IMG/VR virus record: IMGVR_UViG_3300031726_000034
Span: 1-30,066 of that record
DNA from: a virus
DNA length: 30,066 bases
Reading direction: 5' to 3' (one strand)
The notes below the pieces were generated by a model. It saw nothing but the letters and a program-made list of their open reading frames with translations, searched no databases and was not told the DNA's origin. How positions within the stretch are numbered: the first letter of the stretch is position 1; every line of letters begins with the position of its first letter. The position numbers and the translations under genes are program-made. Below, piece by piece: positions 21,236-30,066 of the stretch.

Positions 21236-22582
21236 CTAACCGAGGTCAACCTTGACGAACGACTCAGGCCGCTTGACCGCGAGCGCGAGACGCTCCTCAG
21301 CGAGGATCACCACAGCGTTGCGGACAAAGAAGTCCTCGTGCTGTTCGGCGATCCTGATGTTGGCCTCCTGACGGTCGTACAACTGGGCGCCAAGCCCAAA
21401 GGCACCCACCAATGCGGTGCCCTCGGTCATCGCCGGGGAGTCGACCACCGGGACCGACCACAGACGCGACTCCGCACCGATGGTGACGTTCGCCGTCACG
21501 GTGTAGTGCCCGTCCTCGCCCTTGCCGGTCTCGATGTCCTCCCAGTCTGAGGGGTGGACCACGATGCCGGTGGCGTCGTAGTACGCGAGGATGACCTTGG
21601 TCAGGGCACGCCGGATGGTGTCCTGCTTCTGGTCGGTGACCGGCCCGGACGTGTGGCTGTACGTCTGGATGCCGGGGGTGTTCAGGACGCCGAGCAGGTC
21701 CTCGGAGGTCCCGGTGCCGTAGAGGATCTGGTGGTCCTCGGTCAGCCGCAGCCCGTAGAGCAGTTCGTTGTTGATCGTGCTCTGAAGTTGCGGCTCGTCG
21801 GCGAGCACGTTGCGGTGCGCGGCCTCCCAGTGCGCGATGGTCCGCACCGGCGCCTGAGCGGTCTCAAACTTCAGGCTGGAATGAGGCTTGAGCCCGAACG
21901 CACCGGCCTTGTAGTCCGGCACGACACTGGCGCTGGACGACAGGTCGAGACGGTTGGTGCCGAACCCGAGGACCCGGAAAAAGTCGATCAGGTTGCTTGA
22001 GGTGGCAGCCACCGGGAACAGGTCCCGCACCCGTGCGCGACGGAAGTTGCGGGGCACCATGGGGTCCAACTGCCGCCCGCCGAATCCCTCGGGGATAGTG
22101 CTGAACGTGGAGCCGGACATCCCGCCGTACACGTCCTTGGTGGACGTCTTGGTGATGTCCTGACCGTGGATCTCCCACGCCTTGGACATCGTGCCGCCGC
22201 CGGAGGCGCGCAGCGACTTGAACTCCTCGGACTCGGTGAACCGGGACCCGAGGTCCTTGCGGGCCTCGGCGAGGACGGCGGCGTCCTCGGCGCGCTGGGC
22301 GCCTGCGGCGGCGCGCACAGCGGCGGACTTGGCCTCAGGCTCGCCCATGAAGTCGACCATGGACGTGCCGAGACGCAAGTCGTCGAGGAGGGTTTTCTTC
22401 TCCCGGGCCGAGGCAAGGTTGGCCCGGAAGTCCTTGGCGGCGTCTTCGGGGACGTAGACGTTCTTGCCCTCGATCTTGAACTGGGACTGGGCGATGCGCT
22501 CGTTCTCGTCGAGCAGCGCCTTGATTTCTTCCTCAAGGGTTTTCGCGGCACCGCTGAGGGCGGTGTCTTCGGTGACAGACAT
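21236..22582 (-). CDS. Major capsid protein, HK97 fold, 448 aa
   Basis: The start is fixed by AAGGAAA 6 bases before the ATG (MSVTEDTALSGAAKTLEEEI). Residues 1 to about 130 are a helical, charged delta/scaffold domain (FRANLASAREKKTLLDDLRL) that the upstream protease should remove. The mature part has the HK97 layout: IPEGFGGRQLDPMVPRNFRR, VRTIAHWEAAHRNVLADEPQ, a long helix LQSTINNELLYGLRLTEDHQ, ILYGTGTSEDLLGVLNTPGI in the A-domain, and WEDIETG. It ends with RIAEQHEDFFVRNAVVILAE and the final strand ALAVKRPESFVKV. It lies immediately after the protease, separated by a 150-base leader with a strong hairpin, which is consistent with separate control for high output. I cannot tell whether chemical crosslinks form. 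Confidence 0.95.
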   Translation of the reverse strand: MSVTEDTALSGAAKTLEEEIKALLDENERIAQSQFKIEGKNVYVPEDAAKDFRANLASAREKKTLLDDLRLGTSMVDFMGEPEAKSAAVRAAAGAQRAEDAAVLAEARKDLGSRFTESEEFKSLRASGGGTMSKAWEIHGQDITKTSTKDVYGGMSGSTFSTIPEGFGGRQLDPMVPRNFRRARVRDLFPVAATSSNLIDFFRVLGFGTNRLDLSSSASVVPDYKAGAFGLKPHSSLKFETAQAPVRTIAHWEAAHRNVLADEPQLQSTINNELLYGLRLTEDHQILYGTGTSEDLLGVLNTPGIQTYSHTSGPVTDQKQDTIRRALTKVILAYYDATGIVVHPSDWEDIETGKGEDGHYTVTANVTIGAESRLWSVPVVDSPAMTEGTALVGAFGLGAQLYDRQEANIRIAEQHEDFFVRNAVVILAEERLALAVKRPESFVKVDLG

Positions 22583-22732: not shown

Positions 22733-23794
22733 TTATGCGGCGCCCGACTTCAAGGTCCCGTCGTCGTTCCACGTGTCGGGGATCTGGTCGGCCAGTTTGA
22801 GTTTGCGTGCTCGGTCGATGATGTGTTTGCGGACCGCCGCCCGCCCTGCCGCCCCGCCCTTGGCGCGGCCCACCGCGCGGATCGCGTTGGACAGGTCGGT
22901 TGGGTTGGCGATCGGATACCGGTTGCCGGGCATCGCCCCGACCACGTGGGCGTCGGCTTTGACCTGCATCGCGCCGATGGTGTGGCCCTTGCCCTCATCG
23001 GCGAGGTCGGCCCACAGGGCGTCGAGGATGGTCAACTCCGCCTCGGTGATGAGGGCCTTGCCCTCGGGGGACTTCTCCTCGGCGGCCTTCAGGGCGCACG
23101 CTTTCATGGCCATGCACTTGGCGCGGACCTCACCGGGCTGGTCGCCGTGCTGGGGGCAGACCTGAAACGGGATGCCTGCCCGCCCGGCGATGTCGGTCAG
23201 GTTCTCGACCTTGGGCGGGATGCCGCCTTGGCCGCCGACGATGTCCTTGACCGCCGACCATGCCTGCTGGGCGGACTTCACGCTCAGGGTCCCGGCCAGC
23301 GGCATCGCCCCGAACAGCACCGGGGAGAACTCAAACAGGTCCATGACCTTGATGTAGCGGACCCCGTTGGTGGTCTTGGACCCGCCGGTGGGCACGTTGT
23401 AGCCCACCGACCAGTTCTGCTCGTCGCCGTAGAACTGGACGTCCTCAAAGGCGTCGCGTCCGCGTTCGGTGTTGAGGTTGAACTGTGCCTTGATGACCAG
23501 AGCACCGGCCTCGGGCGGCCACGCCTTGCCCATCAGGGCCTTGGGCAGGTCGGGGTGGCCGGGCAGCAGTTCGCGCACGCTCAGGGTCTTGGCGATGGGC
23601 TTGTCCCAGTCGTGGGAGTACACACCTTTGGGGGTGCGGGCCTGCAACGTCTTCTCGTAGGCCCCGGGCATGATGACGTCGTTGACGTTGTCCTTGATGC
23701 CGGTGACCGAGACGATGCACTCCACGATGCCCTCGGACGGGCTGACGACGTGGAAGTCGTTGACCGGCAGCGCCTTGTGCTCCATGGTTTCCAT
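22733..23794 (-). CDS. Prohead (capsid maturation) protease, HK97/U35 type, 353 aa
   Basis: GAAGGAG lies just before the ATG at 23794, three bases after the stop of the large multi-domain gene. The N-terminal half has the family pattern: FHVVSPSEGIVECIVSVTG, DNVNDVIMPGAYEKTLQ and GVYSHDWDKPIAK with the catalytic-type His61. NWSVGYNVP (Ser129) and MDLFEFSPVLFGAMP (Ser157) follow. A Cys-containing segment follows (about residues 212-236). The C-terminal domain (YPIANPTDLSNAIRAVGRAK, HIIDRARKLKLADQIPDTW) is a small helical domain often found attached to actinophage head proteins. It should cleave the capsid delta domain and then itself. Confidence 0.92.
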   Translation of the reverse strand: METMEHKALPVNDFHVVSPSEGIVECIVSVTGIKDNVNDVIMPGAYEKTLQARTPKGVYSHDWDKPIAKTLSVRELLPGHPDLPKALMGKAWPPEAGALVIKAQFNLNTERGRDAFEDVQFYGDEQNWSVGYNVPTGGSKTTNGVRYIKVMDLFEFSPVLFGAMPLAGTLSVKSAQQAWSAVKDIVGGQGGIPPKVENLTDIAGRAGIPFQVCPQHGDQPGEVRAKCMAMKACALKAAEEKSPEGKALITEAELTILDALWADLADEGKGHTIGAMQVKADAHVVGAMPGNRYPIANPTDLSNAIRAVGRAKGGAAGRAAVRKHIIDRARKLKLADQIPDTWNDDGTLKSGAA

Positions 23795-23797
23795 TAC

Positions 23798-26700
23798 TCA
23801 CTCCTTCGCGGCGGGCGGCGCCGGTGGTGGTGTCGGTGCGGGTGGGGTCTGTTCCGGGGGAGTGGGTGGCTCGGCGCCGGGGACGGGACTACTCCCGTCG
23901 CCGTCAGGTGCGGGAGCCCCGTCAGTCTGTGGTGGCGGCTCGGGGGATGCCTCCACGAGGGGGAAGTCGAGCACCTCGTTGCCGATGGCAAGGGACAGGA
24001 AGTCGAACGACAGGTCCCGGTCGGCGACCTTGGGCAGGTCGCCACCCTCCTTGTCGTAGGCCAGCGTGATGTGCGGGGTGAACCCGTGAACCTGCGAGAC
24101 CGCGAACCCGTCACCGTTCAGGGCGTCGGCGACCTTCTGCCGGGCGGCGTTCAGGCCGGGAGCGTCGACGTTGGCGTAGACCGGGTCGCCCTCGGCGGGG
24201 TCGCCGTTGAACTTGCCGACCCCGTTGATGGTGCCGTCGATCGGGCCGATCCCGGCGGCGGTCGCCGACACGAGGTTGGACAGGTCGTCAAGGTCGGCTG
24301 GCTCGTAGTCGCTGATCTTGCCGAGGTAGGCGAGTGTGACGTGCAGGTCGGAGTCAGGTAGCCCGCCGGGGACCTTCAGGGCCTTGGCGCTGTCCTCGTC
24401 GGGGTACAGGGCGACCATGATGGAGTCGGAGAAGTCGGGGTCGTCAGGGCCGGGATCGTCAGGGCCATCCGGCTCGGCGCCGGGCTGGTCGGTGGTCTCG
24501 GTGGGCTGGGTGTCGGCCTTGTGCTTGCCCCGCCCCGGGCCTTCCATGCCGGGTGCGACCCCGAGGGCCTCCCGGTGGTAGACGTTGCACAGCCCCTCCG
24601 CGCGCACGCCCACGTACGGGCGCAGTTCGCGCACGCACCTGTCAAAGTCGTGGGGCACACCCCACTTGATCTTGGCGGCGCCCTCACCGTGGACCCAGTA
24701 TTCGCGCAGCCGGGTCGCGCCCGGGTTGGCCGATGGGCGGGACGGTCCGGGGGCCGCCCGGTCGGCTTTGCCCTCGGGCACCCCGGCGCCGGTCGAGGTG
24801 TCCGGCACCGGCATCGTGGTGTGGAAGATGCGGGACTGCTCCATCGGCGGGTTGTCCACCCAGATCGCGCCGTCCAGCAGCGGGGCCACCGCCTCAAAGT
24901 TCAGGCCGGAGCGGGACTGGTACTTGTGCCCGGTCATCGGGCTGATGGACTGTTCGGCTTGGCTGACACCTTGGGAGGTGGAGACCCGGCTCGGCACGTA
25001 CCGGCCCGCGAACGGCCCGCCGATGGTCTCCGGCGGTGCCATGTGGCGCCCCGCCGCGTTGATGATCGACTGCCTCAGGCTCCCGTCGACGAACAGGCCG
25101 CGCACCTGCTCGTAGCCTGCGTCACGCAGGTGGGTGACTTTCCTGCTCTCGTTCTGGACGTCCTTGTCGGCGAACGTCCCGTCAAGGATCACGTTGACGC
25201 CCTCGTCGTAGAGCCGGTCCCGCAGCAGGTTCTTGAGGTGACGCGACTCGCCGTGCAGCAGCGAGGCCGCTTCCAGCGGGCCGATGCCGTACTGGGAGGC
25301 GTACTCGCTGGGCTGCAACCCGGCGCGGATGATCTCCTCTTTCATGTCGTCGGGGTTCAACGTGGCGAAGTTCTTTCCGGCGCCGTCGATCCCGATGCTG
25401 CCGCCCTGCTGTTTCAGCACGGTGGTCTTGCCCGACCCGGAGGGGCCAGCCAAGATCAGCGCCCGCCGGTCCCGGGGGACGTCGGCGTAGCCCGCCATGA
25501 TGGAGTCGATGAGCCGTTTGTGCGTCTGGGCACGCTCGGTGGACCACAGTTCCGTCTGATCGCCGTCGGCGCTGGCTGGCAGCGGGTTCCTGTCATGGAT
25601 CGTGGTGGTGTCCCCGAGCCCGGCGGCGGCCTCTTTGAGGCGGGACTCCAACTGCTCGCAGTATTTGTCGTAGGCCGGGTCGGAGCGGGGGTGCCATGAG
25701 GGCCAGCGTGAGCCCCACGGCTGACCGTCTGGGCCGTTGCCCGGGACCGGAGCCCCGAAGTCGATCCCGCCGGGCTTGGCGACCTTGAGCATGGCCTTGC
25801 GGATCTTGGCCTCTTGGGCGTAGTCCCCGGACTTGGCTGCTGCCGCCCACACGTCCCGGGCCTTGGCGTAGTTCTCCGGCTGGGACAGGTCCACGGACGG
25901 GTCGAGGGGGTCAAAGTTGGTGGGGGTGGTGACCATCCGCCCGGCAAGGTTCTGCTGGTCGGAGAGCATCTCCTCGGTCGCGTCGGCTGCGGTGGCGATG
26001 TCGCCCTGTACGGTGCCCGGCTGTTTGGCCAGCGCCGCGTCCGGCGCCGCTGCGTCGTAGGCGTCAGAGTAGGTGCCCGGCCACGCCATCTGGCGGTCAC
26101 GCTTGGGCCTTCCCGCAAGGGCGTCCGTTCTGCCCGCAGCCTGCGCCTCGTCCATCGACCAGTTCATTTGCTCGTCGATGCGCGCCTTTTCGGCTTGGCG
26201 TGCGGGAGTCTGGGCGCGCTCATGGGCCGTCGGGGGCGCCTTAGGCTTGGGTGCTTCCGGCTTGGGGCCACCCTTGGGCGGGATCGGCTCCTGTGCGATG
26301 TCCGCGCCGGTGATCCCTACCGACTTGATCCCGACCGCAGTGGTGAACGCCTTGGTGTAGTCGAGGGCCTCACCGATGTCCATGTCGAGGACCCGGACCG
26401 GTATCGACAGGTCCCCGAGGTGCCCGTCGGCGGCGTCGATGTTCACGAGCATCGCCCACCGGTGGTGGCCGTCGACGATGTACCCGTCGCGGGTCACCGT
26501 GATGGTGCCCTCAGGGATGTTGCCTGCCTCCATCGCCCGGGTCATCCCGGCGACCTGCGAGCCCTTCAACTCGCCTTGGGAAGCGCGCAGGTGGGAGGCG
26601 AGCACGTCCTTGTTCTCCACGCCGATCCCGAGTTCCTCAAGGGCCTTGAGGAACTCGGGCATCATGTCGACCTCGCCCCGGGCGTCGGGGGTCTTCTGGG

Positions 26701-28480
26701 CGGCGATGGAGCCGGGCTCGGGCTCGCCGGTGACCTGCGGCATCTGCTGGCGGGGGATGCCGAGGGTCTCGGCGCAGAACAGGTTGGTCCCCGGGACCGA
26801 GACGTTGCACAGGTTGATGACCGGCGCCTTTTCGCCCTTGGCGACGGCGTCGTCGACCATCACGTTCAGGATGTCCAGCATCGAGGCCACCTCGTCGGGC
26901 TGGTGGAGCCGTACGTGCTTGTCCTCGGCGAGCAGTTTCAGCGCCAAGTTCAGGTCGCCCTTGACGTCGATCGGGTCGTCGACGGTGCCAGTGGCCGGGG
27001 GTGAGGGACGGCCCTCGGTGTGCGGGACGGTCGAGATCGCCGACTGTGCGACACCGGACACGCTGGCGGCGGGCGCGTTCGGCAGGGTGTGCGGCGGTTC
27101 CACCCGATGCGGCAACGGGGCGGTGCCGAACGACGTGTCGGTGCCGGGCTTGGGTGCCTGCCCGGTGCGCTGCGGCGGGTTCGGGTTCTTGGGTTTCTTG
27201 CCGGGCTCCGGCTTGGGGCCGGTCTCCCGGGCGCGTACCTGCTCGGGGGTCCTGCCTGCGGGGGCTTCCGGTTTGGCGGCGGTGTCCTCAGGCATCTTCA
27301 TGCCCGGCGGGAGCCACCCGGGCGCCATCCACGAGTCGCGGCTGTTCAGCCCGTCCCACGCCCGCTGGCGTTCCTGCAACTGGGCGTCGGTGAACGTGGC
27401 CCTGATCCGGTCCTCTTGGGCCTGTGCCTCGGCGGGGTCGCTGGGGGCGCTGCCCTGATCTGGGGTGCTCGCCCCGGCGCCGGGCTGGCGCGCTCGCAGC
27501 CGCGCCCGCTCGTCAGGAGTCAGGGACCCGGGCGGCTCGTAGCCTCTGGGGTTGGGCGGGGCGAGGACGTCTTGGGGGTTGATGAGTGCGGCGACGGCCA
27601 TCTCAGCCGAGCCCTGCGGATTGGTGTCGATCTGTTCCATGAGTATTTGGGCGGCTTGGACGCGGTCGACATCGTTGCCACCACGGACCGCCATGGAGTA
27701 CCGGTCGGTCTCACTCCGCAGCGGGCCACGGGGCAGGCTCTCTACGATCCTGTCGAGGTTGTACGCCTGCGCGACACGTTGACGCCGGTTCGCGCGGGCG
27801 ACCGCACGGCGCTCGTGCCCGGGCGCGCGTGCCTCGTCCGCGTTGATCGGGCCTTGGGCTGCGGCGGGCACCGTGGCGTGGGAGACCAGTTGGCTCACCC
27901 GGCCACGGAACGACGCGTCGCGGGCCGCCCCTGCGGCTTGGGCCTCTGGTGCCTTGGGTGCAGCAGGGGTGTGTGGGGCTTGGATCTCCCGGGCGCCGCC
28001 CGGCGCGGCGGGCGGCTCCGGGGCGGCGCCACGGTGCCCGGTCGCGCCAGCATCGGGGATGCCGCCGTAGCCGAGACGGTCCACGAACCGGCCCTCAGGG
28101 TCCCTGACTACGAGGGCCTCACTGAACCCCCGGGCGCCCCACCATCCGCCGATGTGGATGCCGCCGGTGACCTTGCCGAGCCCGCCGAGTTTCTTGACCT
28201 CCACGTCGTCCAGTTCGCCCTTGGCGGCCCGGGCGGCGTCGTCGGCCATGGCGCCCATCTGGGCGAGGTAGGTCACCGCCTCAAGTTTCAGGTCATCGGG
28301 TGCGGCCTTGCCTGACGGCAGCCGCAGCAGGTCCATGGCGACCTGCTGGATGTCGGTGGTCCCCAACGCGTGGGCGACCTCATCGAGGGTCCGGGCCAGT
28401 CTCCCGTCGGCGAGGCGGATGTCCCACGAGTTACCCCGCAGCCAGTCCTCGTTGGTGACGTCGTCGATGTAGGTACTCAC
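23798..28480 (-). CDS. Giant multi-domain protein: ParB-like, zeta-toxin-like kinase, 2H phosphoesterase (1560 aa)
   Basis: GTG at 28480 follows AGAGG by a few bases. Residues 1-145 are an unrecognised domain with GGIHIGGWWGARGFSEALVV. Residues about 500-720 form a ParB/sulfiredoxin-like domain: KLLAEDKHVRLHQPDEVASM, VSVPGTNLFCAE, then the YIVDGHHRWAM motif (671-675). Residues about 1000-1220 are a zeta-toxin-like kinase: Walker A GPSGSGKTT (1012-1020), LNPDD (1041-1045), HGES (1076-1079), VILDGTF and GRYVPSRV. Residues about 1258-1312 are a small domain, WVHGEGAAKIKWG with Cys1282 and Cys1298, which I recall from actinophage head-gene clusters. Residues about 1350-1510 are a 2H phosphoesterase with HVT (1380-1382) and HIT (1470-1472). 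Pro/Ala-rich linkers separate the parts and end the chain. All three enzyme signatures look intact. No antitoxin gene is adjacent. Position between the ART gene and the protease suggests a head-internal, co-injected protein. That role is inference. Confidence 0.85.
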   Translation of the reverse strand: MSTYIDDVTNEDWLRGNSWDIRLADGRLARTLDEVAHALGTTDIQQVAMDLLRLPSGKAAPDDLKLEAVTYLAQMGAMADDAARAAKGELDDVEVKKLGGLGKVTGGIHIGGWWGARGFSEALVVRDPEGRFVDRLGYGGIPDAGATGHRGAAPEPPAAPGGAREIQAPHTPAAPKAPEAQAAGAARDASFRGRVSQLVSHATVPAAAQGPINADEARAPGHERRAVARANRRQRVAQAYNLDRIVESLPRGPLRSETDRYSMAVRGGNDVDRVQAAQILMEQIDTNPQGSAEMAVAALINPQDVLAPPNPRGYEPPGSLTPDERARLRARQPGAGASTPDQGSAPSDPAEAQAQEDRIRATFTDAQLQERQRAWDGLNSRDSWMAPGWLPPGMKMPEDTAAKPEAPAGRTPEQVRARETGPKPEPGKKPKNPNPPQRTGQAPKPGTDTSFGTAPLPHRVEPPHTLPNAPAASVSGVAQSAISTVPHTEGRPSPPATGTVDDPIDVKGDLNLALKLLAEDKHVRLHQPDEVASMLDILNVMVDDAVAKGEKAPVINLCNVSVPGTNLFCAETLGIPRQQMPQVTGEPEPGSIAAQKTPDARGEVDMMPEFLKALEELGIGVENKDVLASHLRASQGELKGSQVAGMTRAMEAGNIPEGTITVTRDGYIVDGHHRWAMLVNIDAADGHLGDLSIPVRVLDMDIGEALDYTKAFTTAVGIKSVGITGADIAQEPIPPKGGPKPEAPKPKAPPTAHERAQTPARQAEKARIDEQMNWSMDEAQAAGRTDALAGRPKRDRQMAWPGTYSDAYDAAAPDAALAKQPGTVQGDIATAADATEEMLSDQQNLAGRMVTTPTNFDPLDPSVDLSQPENYAKARDVWAAAAKSGDYAQEAKIRKAMLKVAKPGGIDFGAPVPGNGPDGQPWGSRWPSWHPRSDPAYDKYCEQLESRLKEAAAGLGDTTTIHDRNPLPASADGDQTELWSTERAQTHKRLIDSIMAGYADVPRDRRALILAGPSGSGKTTVLKQQGGSIGIDGAGKNFATLNPDDMKEEIIRAGLQPSEYASQYGIGPLEAASLLHGESRHLKNLLRDRLYDEGVNVILDGTFADKDVQNESRKVTHLRDAGYEQVRGLFVDGSLRQSIINAAGRHMAPPETIGGPFAGRYVPSRVSTSQGVSQAEQSISPMTGHKYQSRSGLNFEAVAPLLDGAIWVDNPPMEQSRIFHTTMPVPDTSTGAGVPEGKADRAAPGPSRPSANPGATRLREYWVHGEGAAKIKWGVPHDFDRCVRELRPYVGVRAEGLCNVYHREALGVAPGMEGPGRGKHKADTQPTETTDQPGAEPDGPDDPGPDDPDFSDSIMVALYPDEDSAKALKVPGGLPDSDLHVTLAYLGKISDYEPADLDDLSNLVSATAAGIGPIDGTINGVGKFNGDPAEGDPVYANVDAPGLNAARQKVADALNGDGFAVSQVHGFTPHITLAYDKEGGDLPKVADRDLSFDFLSLAIGNEVLDFPLVEASPEPPPQTDGAPAPDGDGSSPVPGAEPPTPPEQTPPAPTPPPAPPAAKE

Positions 28481-28493
28481 GGTGACCTCTCAC

Positions 28494-30066
28494 TCATGGC
28501 TTGTGCCGCCAGTCGTCGGGCAGTTTGGCTCCGGGCAGGGAGTACATGCCGCTGTCGAGCATCGCGGCCAGTTCCATCCGGCGGGCTTGGTCCCCGGTGC
28601 TGATCCCGTACACCTCGCCGTACATCTCGGCGCTGACGGCGTCGTACAGGTCCCGGGCGGTGCCCGCCTTGATGTCGGCGATGGTCATGGCCGCCGCCCG
28701 GCGCATCCGCTCGGCCTTGCGCTCGGCGGAGTCCTCGTCCTTGGCCCCGTCGAACGTCAGCCCGTCCTCGGACAGGCCGGTGTTCTGCGGCCACCAGTCG
28801 GCGGGGATGAACCCGGCCCACCCGCCGCGATCACGGGAGCGTTCCATCAGGGCGTCGCGGCGCTCCTGCGTGGAGGCCATACGGATCGCGGTCTGGAAGT
28901 CATCTTCGCGGTCGATCGCGCCCGCCGGGGTCCGGTCCGCCTCGTCCTCGGTCATGGGCGGGATGACGCTGGTGCGGACGGCCACGTCCAGTTTCCCACC
29001 GAGGACCACGACCTCCCACTCGTTCAGGGCGCCGACACCGGTGCGGGGGGTGGCGATGATCCGTTCGACCGGGACGGTCGTGCCGACCACGACGTTGACC
29101 TGTTTGCTGGACCCCTGCCCGCTGTTGCGCCCGAACTGGTCGGCGGTGTCCCGGTCAAGGGTCCATGAGGACATCGGTCGCAGCGCGATGGTCGTGTCAC
29201 CGTCGACCTGCGCCCAGTCCGGGGCTATCTCGGGGGCTTGACCCGCCCAGCCCATGCCCCGGTACACGGTGACCTCTTTGATCCCGGCGTCGGCGTACCG
29301 GCGCTGGGTCAGGTCGTACTGGGCTTGCAGGAACGCGGTGATCGCCTCGCCCCGGTCGGCTTTGATCTGGTCGATCTCGGCCCGCACCGTCTCACCGCCG
29401 TAGGTGCCGTGGCCAACGTACTCAAGGTCCCAGTCGGCGTGGTCGGTGATCCCGAACAGTTCGGCGGCGATCTCTTGGATGGCCAGCGACTCAGGGGAGG
29501 AGTCGTTGGAGGACTGCGCCCACTGGGCGACCATCGAGTTGACGACCTGCCCGCGCCGGAACTCACGCACGCGCGGGTCATCCAGCGGGACCGTGTCGTA
29601 GTAGTCGGAGTCATACCCAAGACTGCTACCCACCTTGACAGGCTTGGGTGGCGGGCCTTGGACGCCGGGGATCTTGTAGACCGCCGCCTGAAGCGACAGG
29701 GGCTCCCCGTTGCTGTCCACGGTGGCGGTGAACCCGTCGTCGACGCCCCGGAACATGACCTCGTCAGGGACCTGCTCCATCTCGTGGCCGATGTCGGCCA
29801 CGACCTGCGCCTTGGCCTCGTGGCGCATGTCCTCAGAGACAAGGTGGTGGGTGGTCGAGGGCACAGGGGACAGTTGGTCAGGGTGGAAGTCCATCCCGAC
29901 CGTTGACGGCAGGTCCTTGAGGTTGAAGTCGGCCCACTGCTGCCACGCGAACGTGTGCTCACCCCAGACGGGGGTCTCCATGTCCGCCCGGCTCGGCATG
30001 TCGGCCACGGGCTTGCCCGGGGTGTTCCACGTCGGGGACGTGGGGGTCTCGTCGATCGGCCCGGCG
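28494..30066 (-). CDS. ADP-ribosyltransferase domain protein (partial, N-terminus beyond right edge)
   Basis: The frame is open to the right edge, so the GTG at 30008 need not be the start. I number from that GTG. Residues about 150-340 hold an R-S-E class ADP-ribosyltransferase: a helical lead-in (QYDLTQRRYADAG), EVTVYRGMGW with Arg250, ALRPMSSWTLDRDTADQF with Ser280-Ser281, and VGALNEWEVVVLGG with the Glu330-x-Glu332 catalytic pair. ExE is typical of arginine-modifying enzymes. The C-terminal 160 residues are charged and helical without a known motif. In related phages such domains lie at the end of MuF-like head morphogenesis proteins between portal and protease, so the missing part may be such a domain. 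It precedes the giant enzyme-array gene by 13 bases. A packaged, injected effector role is likely but unproven. Confidence 0.82.
   Translation of the reverse strand, partial: AGPIDETPTSPTWNTPGKPVADMPSRADMETPVWGEHTFAWQQWADFNLKDLPSTVGMDFHPDQLSPVPSTTHHLVSEDMRHEAKAQVVADIGHEMEQVPDEVMFRGVDDGFTATVDSNGEPLSLQAAVYKIPGVQGPPPKPVKVGSSLGYDSDYYDTVPLDDPRVREFRRGQVVNSMVAQWAQSSNDSSPESLAIQEIAAELFGITDHADWDLEYVGHGTYGGETVRAEIDQIKADRGEAITAFLQAQYDLTQRRYADAGIKEVTVYRGMGWAGQAPEIAPDWAQVDGDTTIALRPMSSWTLDRDTADQFGRNSGQGSSKQVNVVVGTTVPVERIIATPRTGVGALNEWEVVVLGGKLDVAVRTSVIPPMTEDEADRTPAGAIDREDDFQTAIRMASTQERRDALMERSRDRGGWAGFIPADWWPQNTGLSEDGLTFDGAKDEDSAERKAERMRRAAAMTIADIKAGTARDLYDAVSAEMYGEVYGISTGDQARRMELAAMLDSGMYSLPGAKLPDDWRHKP

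Follow-up and report, generated by a model that had tools for sequence, protein, structure and literature searches.

The 2H domain and its gene neighbourhood

The window analysed here, a virus record of 30,066 bases from an actinobacterial phage, contains an open reading frame for a protein of 1560 residues with a GTG start, near whose C-terminus lies a 2H phosphoesterase domain followed by a Pro-rich tail. Every gene of the window that can be named by family sits on the minus strand, as does this reading frame. The features on which the following account draws are:

21236..22582, minus strand: major capsid protein (PF05065, E 3e-38)
22733..23794, minus strand: prohead protease, Peptidase_S78 (PF04586, E 3.8e-10; phrog_80)
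23798..28480, minus strand: 1560-residue multi-domain late protein carrying the 2H domain (open reading frame and family searches)
23945..24436, minus strand: 2H phosphoesterase domain, residues 1349-1512 (PF13563, AlphaFold2 model, LigT/CPDase fold)
24056..24058, minus strand: Tyr1475, aligned with LigT Arg130 and Acb1 Tyr118 (hhalign, row counts)
24065..24073, minus strand: catalytic motif 2, H1470-I-T1472
24335..24343, minus strand: catalytic motif 1, H1380-V-T1382
24542..24718, minus strand: YWVHGEGA module of about 55 residues, upstream of the 2H domain, residues 1255-1313 (phrog_6439, E 1.3e-22)
24983..25465, minus strand: zeta-toxin-like kinase domain with the P-loop GPSGSGKT, residues 1006-1166 (PF06414, E 3.7e-13)
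26336..26821, minus strand: ParB-like region, residues 554-715 (phrog_2859, E 2.7e-15; weakly phrog_1033, E 0.056)
28494..30065, minus strand: upstream gene, truncated at the end of the window, that may encode an ADP-ribosyltransferase (PF07357 (DRAT), 21.3 bits with a cut-off of 25)

The two genes directly downstream of the 2H reading frame, co-directional with it and tightly spaced, encode the prohead protease, whose start lies 3 bases past the end of the 2H reading frame, and then the major capsid protein. A Gp80/phrog_240 head protein (PF23140) is located at 1324-1953 on the minus strand, near the left end and past the tail genes. With its ParB-like region, zeta-like kinase and 2H domain, the long protein shows a feature of head-packaged polyvalent effectors, namely several effector-type domains combined in one late protein beside virion genes. 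The kinase domain scores 49.8 bits with the zeta toxin model as against 28.8 bits with AAA_33, and the accessible text of the 2017 paper on polyvalent proteins describes zeta-like kinases joined to MuF in phages (PMC5512222). A search of the window for defence proteins (padloc) returned a weak P-loop match only, and megablast of its bases 1-25000 (of 30066) against named phages found no relative.

The preliminary description had placed a C-terminal 2H domain at 23951-24433 on account of two HxT motifs 90 residues apart, and both points are borne out: H1380 and H1470 are separated by exactly 90 residues, and PF13563, the AlphaFold2 model and the matches to solved structures place the domain at 23945-24436. 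The bare spacing of HxT/S motifs was dropped as proof of a 2H domain, as a loose pair (two HxT/S motifs, 70-110 residues apart) arose by chance in 407 of 2000 shuffles of the 1560-residue protein; a stricter pair of H-hydrophobic-T/S-L motifs arose in 1 of 2000. The identity is settled because family models score above their cut-offs, PF13563 with 51 bits (cut-off 27; E 2.1e-13, residues 1370-1485), PF02834 with 33.9 bits (cut-off 23.3; E 3.7e-8) and PF10469 with 27.5 bits (cut-off 24.4; E 3.4e-6). Among PHROG families, the domain matches 14859 and 2659, both named 'RNA ligase'.

Fold and active site of the 2H domain

AlphaFold2, employed with an alignment of 89 rows (the window and 88 relatives), modelled the domain with a pLDDT of 95.8 and a pTM of 0.90 and placed the two HxT motifs on paired strands. 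Foldseek matches to this model were aligned in a second look, from which the Z scores given here were taken, and the top matches among solved structures were 2H enzymes: CPDase from D. radiodurans (5h7e; Z 18.3, 156 residues, 2.8 A), 1iuh from T. thermophilus (Z 17.8) and E. coli LigT (Z 16.3 over 149 residues). Lower scores were obtained for Usb1 (14.9), AKAP18 (14.5), CPDase from Arabidopsis (14.1 and 12.1), rotavirus VP3 (13.9), Acb1 (12.2 and 11.4) and the cGAMP PDE of penguinpox virus (9.3). Profile comparison gave 1e-9 for E. coli ThpR, 7.5e-8 for an alignment of Acb1 and 4.8e-6 for T4 Acb1 alone, and profile matches to ThpR chains reached about 1e-11. The comparison of the predicted structure with Acb1 and LigT/CPDase, which had been proposed as a check, came out clearly nearer to LigT/CPDase, and by modelled fold and by profile these are the closest enzymes. 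The domain is a complete 2H phosphoesterase with the full catalytic tetrad and, from its model and its conserved residues, looks catalytically active.

The nearest folds, with drCPDase, LigT and Usb1 among them, and the ThpR chain matches favor an RNA-end enzyme, which would open the 2',3'-cyclic phosphates produced by host ribonuclease defences or, as a Usb1-like RNase, make them. We consider this possible, if on the doubtful side. It is at odds with the score of the ThpR equivalog model TIGR02258, which at 32.1 bits stays far below its cut-off of 65.7, and with the active site described below, in which Arg130 of LigT is missing; also, the LigT and ThpR proteins differ from the window domain in that the latter is fused to a phage protein.

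Kinship with Acb1, which the preliminary description had named as a known phage 2H enzyme, was not supported, and the window domain is not a member of the Acb1 family. Its score with the Acb1 model PF23474 (18.6 bits) does not reach the cut-off of 27, its structural similarity to Acb1 is lower than that to LigT/CPDase, and in a tree of 62 rows the 13 Acb1 rows, all of the T4 type, form one clade (100/99) with the window outside of it. In the same tree 5 LigT-type rows form one clade (98/89) and the window groups with head-associated rows, for which a single clade is not established; with its midpoint root, long branches and unsettled bootstrap the tree backs only the standing apart of Acb1. 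Acb1 (T4 57B, FBB1) is moreover a small protein on its own, whereas the window 2H forms one part of a large late protein. The T4 gene for Acb1 (57B) adjoins ipI, the gene for an internal head protein (L196:3592-4411).

According to hhalign, domain positions 7, 37 and 127 correspond to Phe8, Phe48 and Arg130 of LigT and to Tyr12, Tyr49 and Tyr118 of Acb1. Arg130 of LigT binds the phosphate and the nucleophilic water, as stated in the part of the source that is accessible (PMC5283653). At position 127, which lay outside the patterns used in the scans, the window has Tyr1475, and Tyr is found in 86 of the 89 aligned rows and in 13 of 15 in the set A2, where Mutzi and Jambalaya have Ser. LigT-type sequences with Arg at this position are 5h7e, 1vdx, E. 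coli ThpR and the genome loci L235 and L237, and the matched pieces of L236 and L238 stop short of it. The active site is one of LigT-like fold with one Acb1-like accessory residue, the Tyr, as read from aligned sequences and with a contrast that rests on few LigT-type members.

The other residues that characterise Acb1 are Y12, W74, F107 and W147, with stacking roles taken from the accessible part of PMC9117128, and as a set they are absent from the window family. The Y12 column contains Met in 82 of 89 rows; position 77, which aligns with W74, is aromatic in 4/89; position 111, which aligns with F107, is aromatic in 25/89 and Phe in the window; and W147 falls past the alignable part, with a Trp within the last 20 residues in 25/89 rows as against 13/13 for Acb1. 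Trp74 and Trp147 are in this way left with no conserved counterpart. F76 neighbours the W74 column at a distance of one residue; 88 of the 89 rows have Phe there, and this Phe might substitute for W74.

An Acb1-like signal nuclease, linearising a cyclic di- or trinucleotide of CBASS, the ring of type III CRISPR or another nucleotide signal before phage expression, is a reading that we entertain tentatively but seriously. It draws on the HxT/HxT tetrad, on the Tyr at the position of Acb1 Tyr118, and on the second motif, FTPHITLAY, which is close to YTPHITLSY of T4 Acb1. Cleavage of cGAMP by LigT-like enzymes of phages and poxviruses, considered anti-immunity devices, is reported in the accessible text of PMC11410667, and an activity of this kind has already been predicted for head-fused 2H domains in the available portions of PMC5512222 and PMC9503650. 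The position outside the Acb1 clade, the missed PF23474 cut-off and the poorly kept stacking columns count against it.

Relatives in named phages and in viral contigs

By tblastn, relatives of the 2H domain were detected in 339 named phage records, all at less than 60% identity and mostly from hosts of the genera Mycobacterium, Gordonia, Streptomyces and Arthrobacter. Gene context was sampled in 14 records, 13 phages and one plasmid-prophage. In 12 of these a portal gene is annotated upstream of the 2H gene, in 9 a major capsid gene is annotated downstream of it, and each of the 14 stretches contains one or more of portal, MuF and major capsid protein (MuF of phiSAJS1 gp17 being recognised by Pfam). 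Six phages possess a small stand-alone 2H gene (Cantare 9, Phrappuccino 50, Mutzi 19, Jambalaya 17, HyRo 87, CherryTomatoes 92), Shrooms 18 is a fusion of 2H to an XkdF protease, and in the Streptomyces prophage-plasmid 2H is fused to an S78 protease. Of the 14 named relatives, which had been chosen independently of any motif pattern, 13 retain both HxT motifs. Gp17 of Streptomyces phage phiSAJS1 (L066:5254-9021) combines MuF, the phrog_6439 module and a 2H domain; its second motif reads HIC in place of HxT, and this 2H domain may be impaired.

Public labels on phage 2H genes (e.g., L067:5830-6948 and L075:4902-5453) include 'RNA ligase', 'aldolase class I' and 'capsid maturation protease'. 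The 'aldolase' label looks wrong, and 'RNA ligase', usual for these relatives, found support in no test of this analysis. The 'RNA ligase' genes Laroye 18, Mutzi 19 and HyRo 87 share with the window a homologous 2H domain and a similar place between portal and capsid genes, but some of the actinophage genes so labelled stand alone and others are joined to different head proteins. In BFVD, the best named structure matches are likewise actinophage proteins, labelled 'RNA ligase' or structural.

Scanning viral contigs with a single sequence brought up no 2H relative, and alignments were needed; two alignment-based scans yielded 116 loci, of which 88 remained after removal of near-copies. Of the 116 loci, 115 carry both HxT motifs, a count biased by the fact that the scans sought one motif or the other. 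By phmmer, 41 of the 88 dereplicated loci are fused. Fusions to proteases comprise S78-2H (11), S78-2H-module (5), 2H-XkdF (9) and module-2H-XkdF (1), and the others are portal-2H (10), 2H-MuF (2), 2H-portal-MuF (1) and module-2H (2). For the remaining 47 loci, Pfam revealed XkdF protease (8), portal (7 and 2), capsid (5 and 1), Mu-like protease (4), gpT (4) and MuF (2), in classes that may overlap. A head gene is fused or in the flank by phmmer in 61 of 88 loci and none was seen by phmmer in 27. Because domain order and partner differ, we infer from these sequences that several separate fusions of 2H to head proteins arose. Portal, protease, MuF and capsid proteins face the interior of the head, and with such partners the head lumen would be the location that the 2H domains share.

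Fusion to several unrelated kinds of structural head proteins could also mean that 2H acts, or serves as a spacer, in head building and has no function after injection. We find this assembly role unlikely, as the catalytic tetrad is kept in nearly all of the named relatives and as the separate small 2H gene of six named phages implies that no fixed structural partner is needed.

In proteins of the CNPase and Trl1 type, which repair RNA, a 5'-end kinase is joined to a cyclic-phosphate 2H-type domain. An RNA-end enzyme could in the same manner have its 5'-end kinase in the zeta/P-loop kinase of the window protein. However, a zeta-type kinase beside 2H was encountered in 0 of 116 loci (phmmer) and in 0 of 47 reading frames (Pfam, E 0.001), and the kinase itself is far better described as a zeta toxin than as AAA_33. 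The idea of a CNPase/Trl1-style repair pair was dropped on these counts, and from the sequences the pairing of kinase and 2H looks local to this phage. In addition, the accessible text of the 2017 paper states that 2H domains of this sort were never met together with RNA ligases (PMC5512222).

The upstream gene suggests another substrate, ADP-ribose 1'',2''-cyclic phosphate or some other NAD-derived product, on which 2H would act together with an ADP-ribosyltransferase. Besides its weak match to DRAT, this gene contains YRG, SSWT and EWE motifs that, read by eye, resemble the R, S and ExE motifs; Gordonia phage ScarletRaider has a VIP2-like ART gene beside its 2H gene, and the Arabidopsis CPDase is among the structural matches. 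As the upstream ART region was detected by phmmer near just 2 of 116 loci, we judge this reading quite improbable. ADP-ribosyltransferase-like regions resembling the upstream gene occur near the 2H genes of loci L093 and L174.

The YWVHGEGA module (phrog_6439; L002-L065) is strongly conserved over about 55 residues with the pattern EYWVHGEGA.KI.WG..DF.RC ... C...H..A.G. It recurs at the start of prohead-protease reading frames, with Peptidase_S78 in 38 of the 52 members scanned, it adjoins 2H domains, and it forms reading frames of just 63-71 residues (L003, L005). It was found in 227 phage records, in some of them distant from head genes. AlphaFold2 models it as all-helical, with a best pLDDT of 82.8 and a span of 65.2-82.8 over five models, and its profile matches in the PDB are designed helical repeats and fusions of these. 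From its distribution, the module could serve as a tag, either for targeting to the head or linked to the protease; a literature search without most subscription papers or bioRxiv found no paper tying phrog_6439 to the capsid maturation protease.

Proposed action and its meaning for the phages

Taken as a whole, we regard it as somewhat probable, from sequence and model, that the window encodes an active, head-packaged 2H enzyme that acts early on a nucleotide or cyclic-phosphate product. The 2H domain would be made with the head and most likely packaged within it, since its fusion partners face the head interior, and it would, at least in part, reach the host with the DNA. There it would cleave a nucleotide whose phosphodiester is strained or cyclic, by metal-independent acid-base catalysis through the two histidines, and candidate targets are a second messenger of defence or an RNA end bearing a 2',3'-cyclic phosphate. 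As the putative substrate, a defence nucleotide signal ranks slightly ahead of RNA ends, because the phosphate-binding Arg of LigT gives way to Tyr, the residue that Acb1 has, and because no partner for RNA repair was seen to recur with the 2H domain. Several points count against this best reading: in portal fusions 2H could get into the cell only once freed by proteolysis, the LigT-like fold of the model equally allows an RNA-end enzyme, and in 27 of 88 representatives phmmer saw no head gene fused or in the flank. The counter-defence role proposed in the preliminary description retains the intact 2H tetrad, as well as a gene context and fused relatives that point to the inside of the head, and loses the kinship with Acb1.

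That a head-packaged 2H enzyme blunts nucleotide signalling is itself a published hypothesis. As far as their accessible texts go, Iyer et al. (2017; PMC5512222) described fusions of 2H domains with MuF or portal and suggested that these domains are RNases or degraders of nucleotide-activated defence signals, and a 2022 paper (PMC9503650) made the same proposal, with packaging and injection. The polyvalent head-packaged proteins of these two papers, within those texts, resemble the window protein in superfamily, in being multi-domain late proteins and in virion-gene context, and injection and counter-signalling were proposed for them. The fusions named there are to MuF and portal, whereas the relatives found here are also joined to capsid and to proteases of the S78, XkdF and Mu-like kinds, and the window protein differs from the published examples by its zeta-like kinase and YWVHGEGA module. 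The present analysis contributes the fusions to proteases and capsid proteins, the consistent position of the gene in cultured actinophages, the replacement of Arg by Tyr and the evidence against membership in Acb1, all of which may already exist in the literature; a search without most subscription papers or bioRxiv found no paper from 2022 on that joins 2H phosphodiesterase, phage and defense.

For the large and mostly actinophage family as a whole, with unrelated fusion partners that include portal, MuF, capsid and proteases of two or three families, it is a speculative but conceivable proposal that 2H is a virion-borne, first-wave counter-defence enzyme that is delivered from the head before expression and that cuts a nucleotide signal, combining the fold of LigT with the active-site Tyr seen in Acb1. 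If delivery with the DNA and cleavage of a defence signal were both true, the particle would carry a ready-made immune antagonist that needs no expression, and many 'RNA ligase' labels would be replaced by a testable name. The family is common in cultured phages of Mycobacterium, Gordonia and Arthrobacter, so that a hypothesis standing since 2017 is open to testing.
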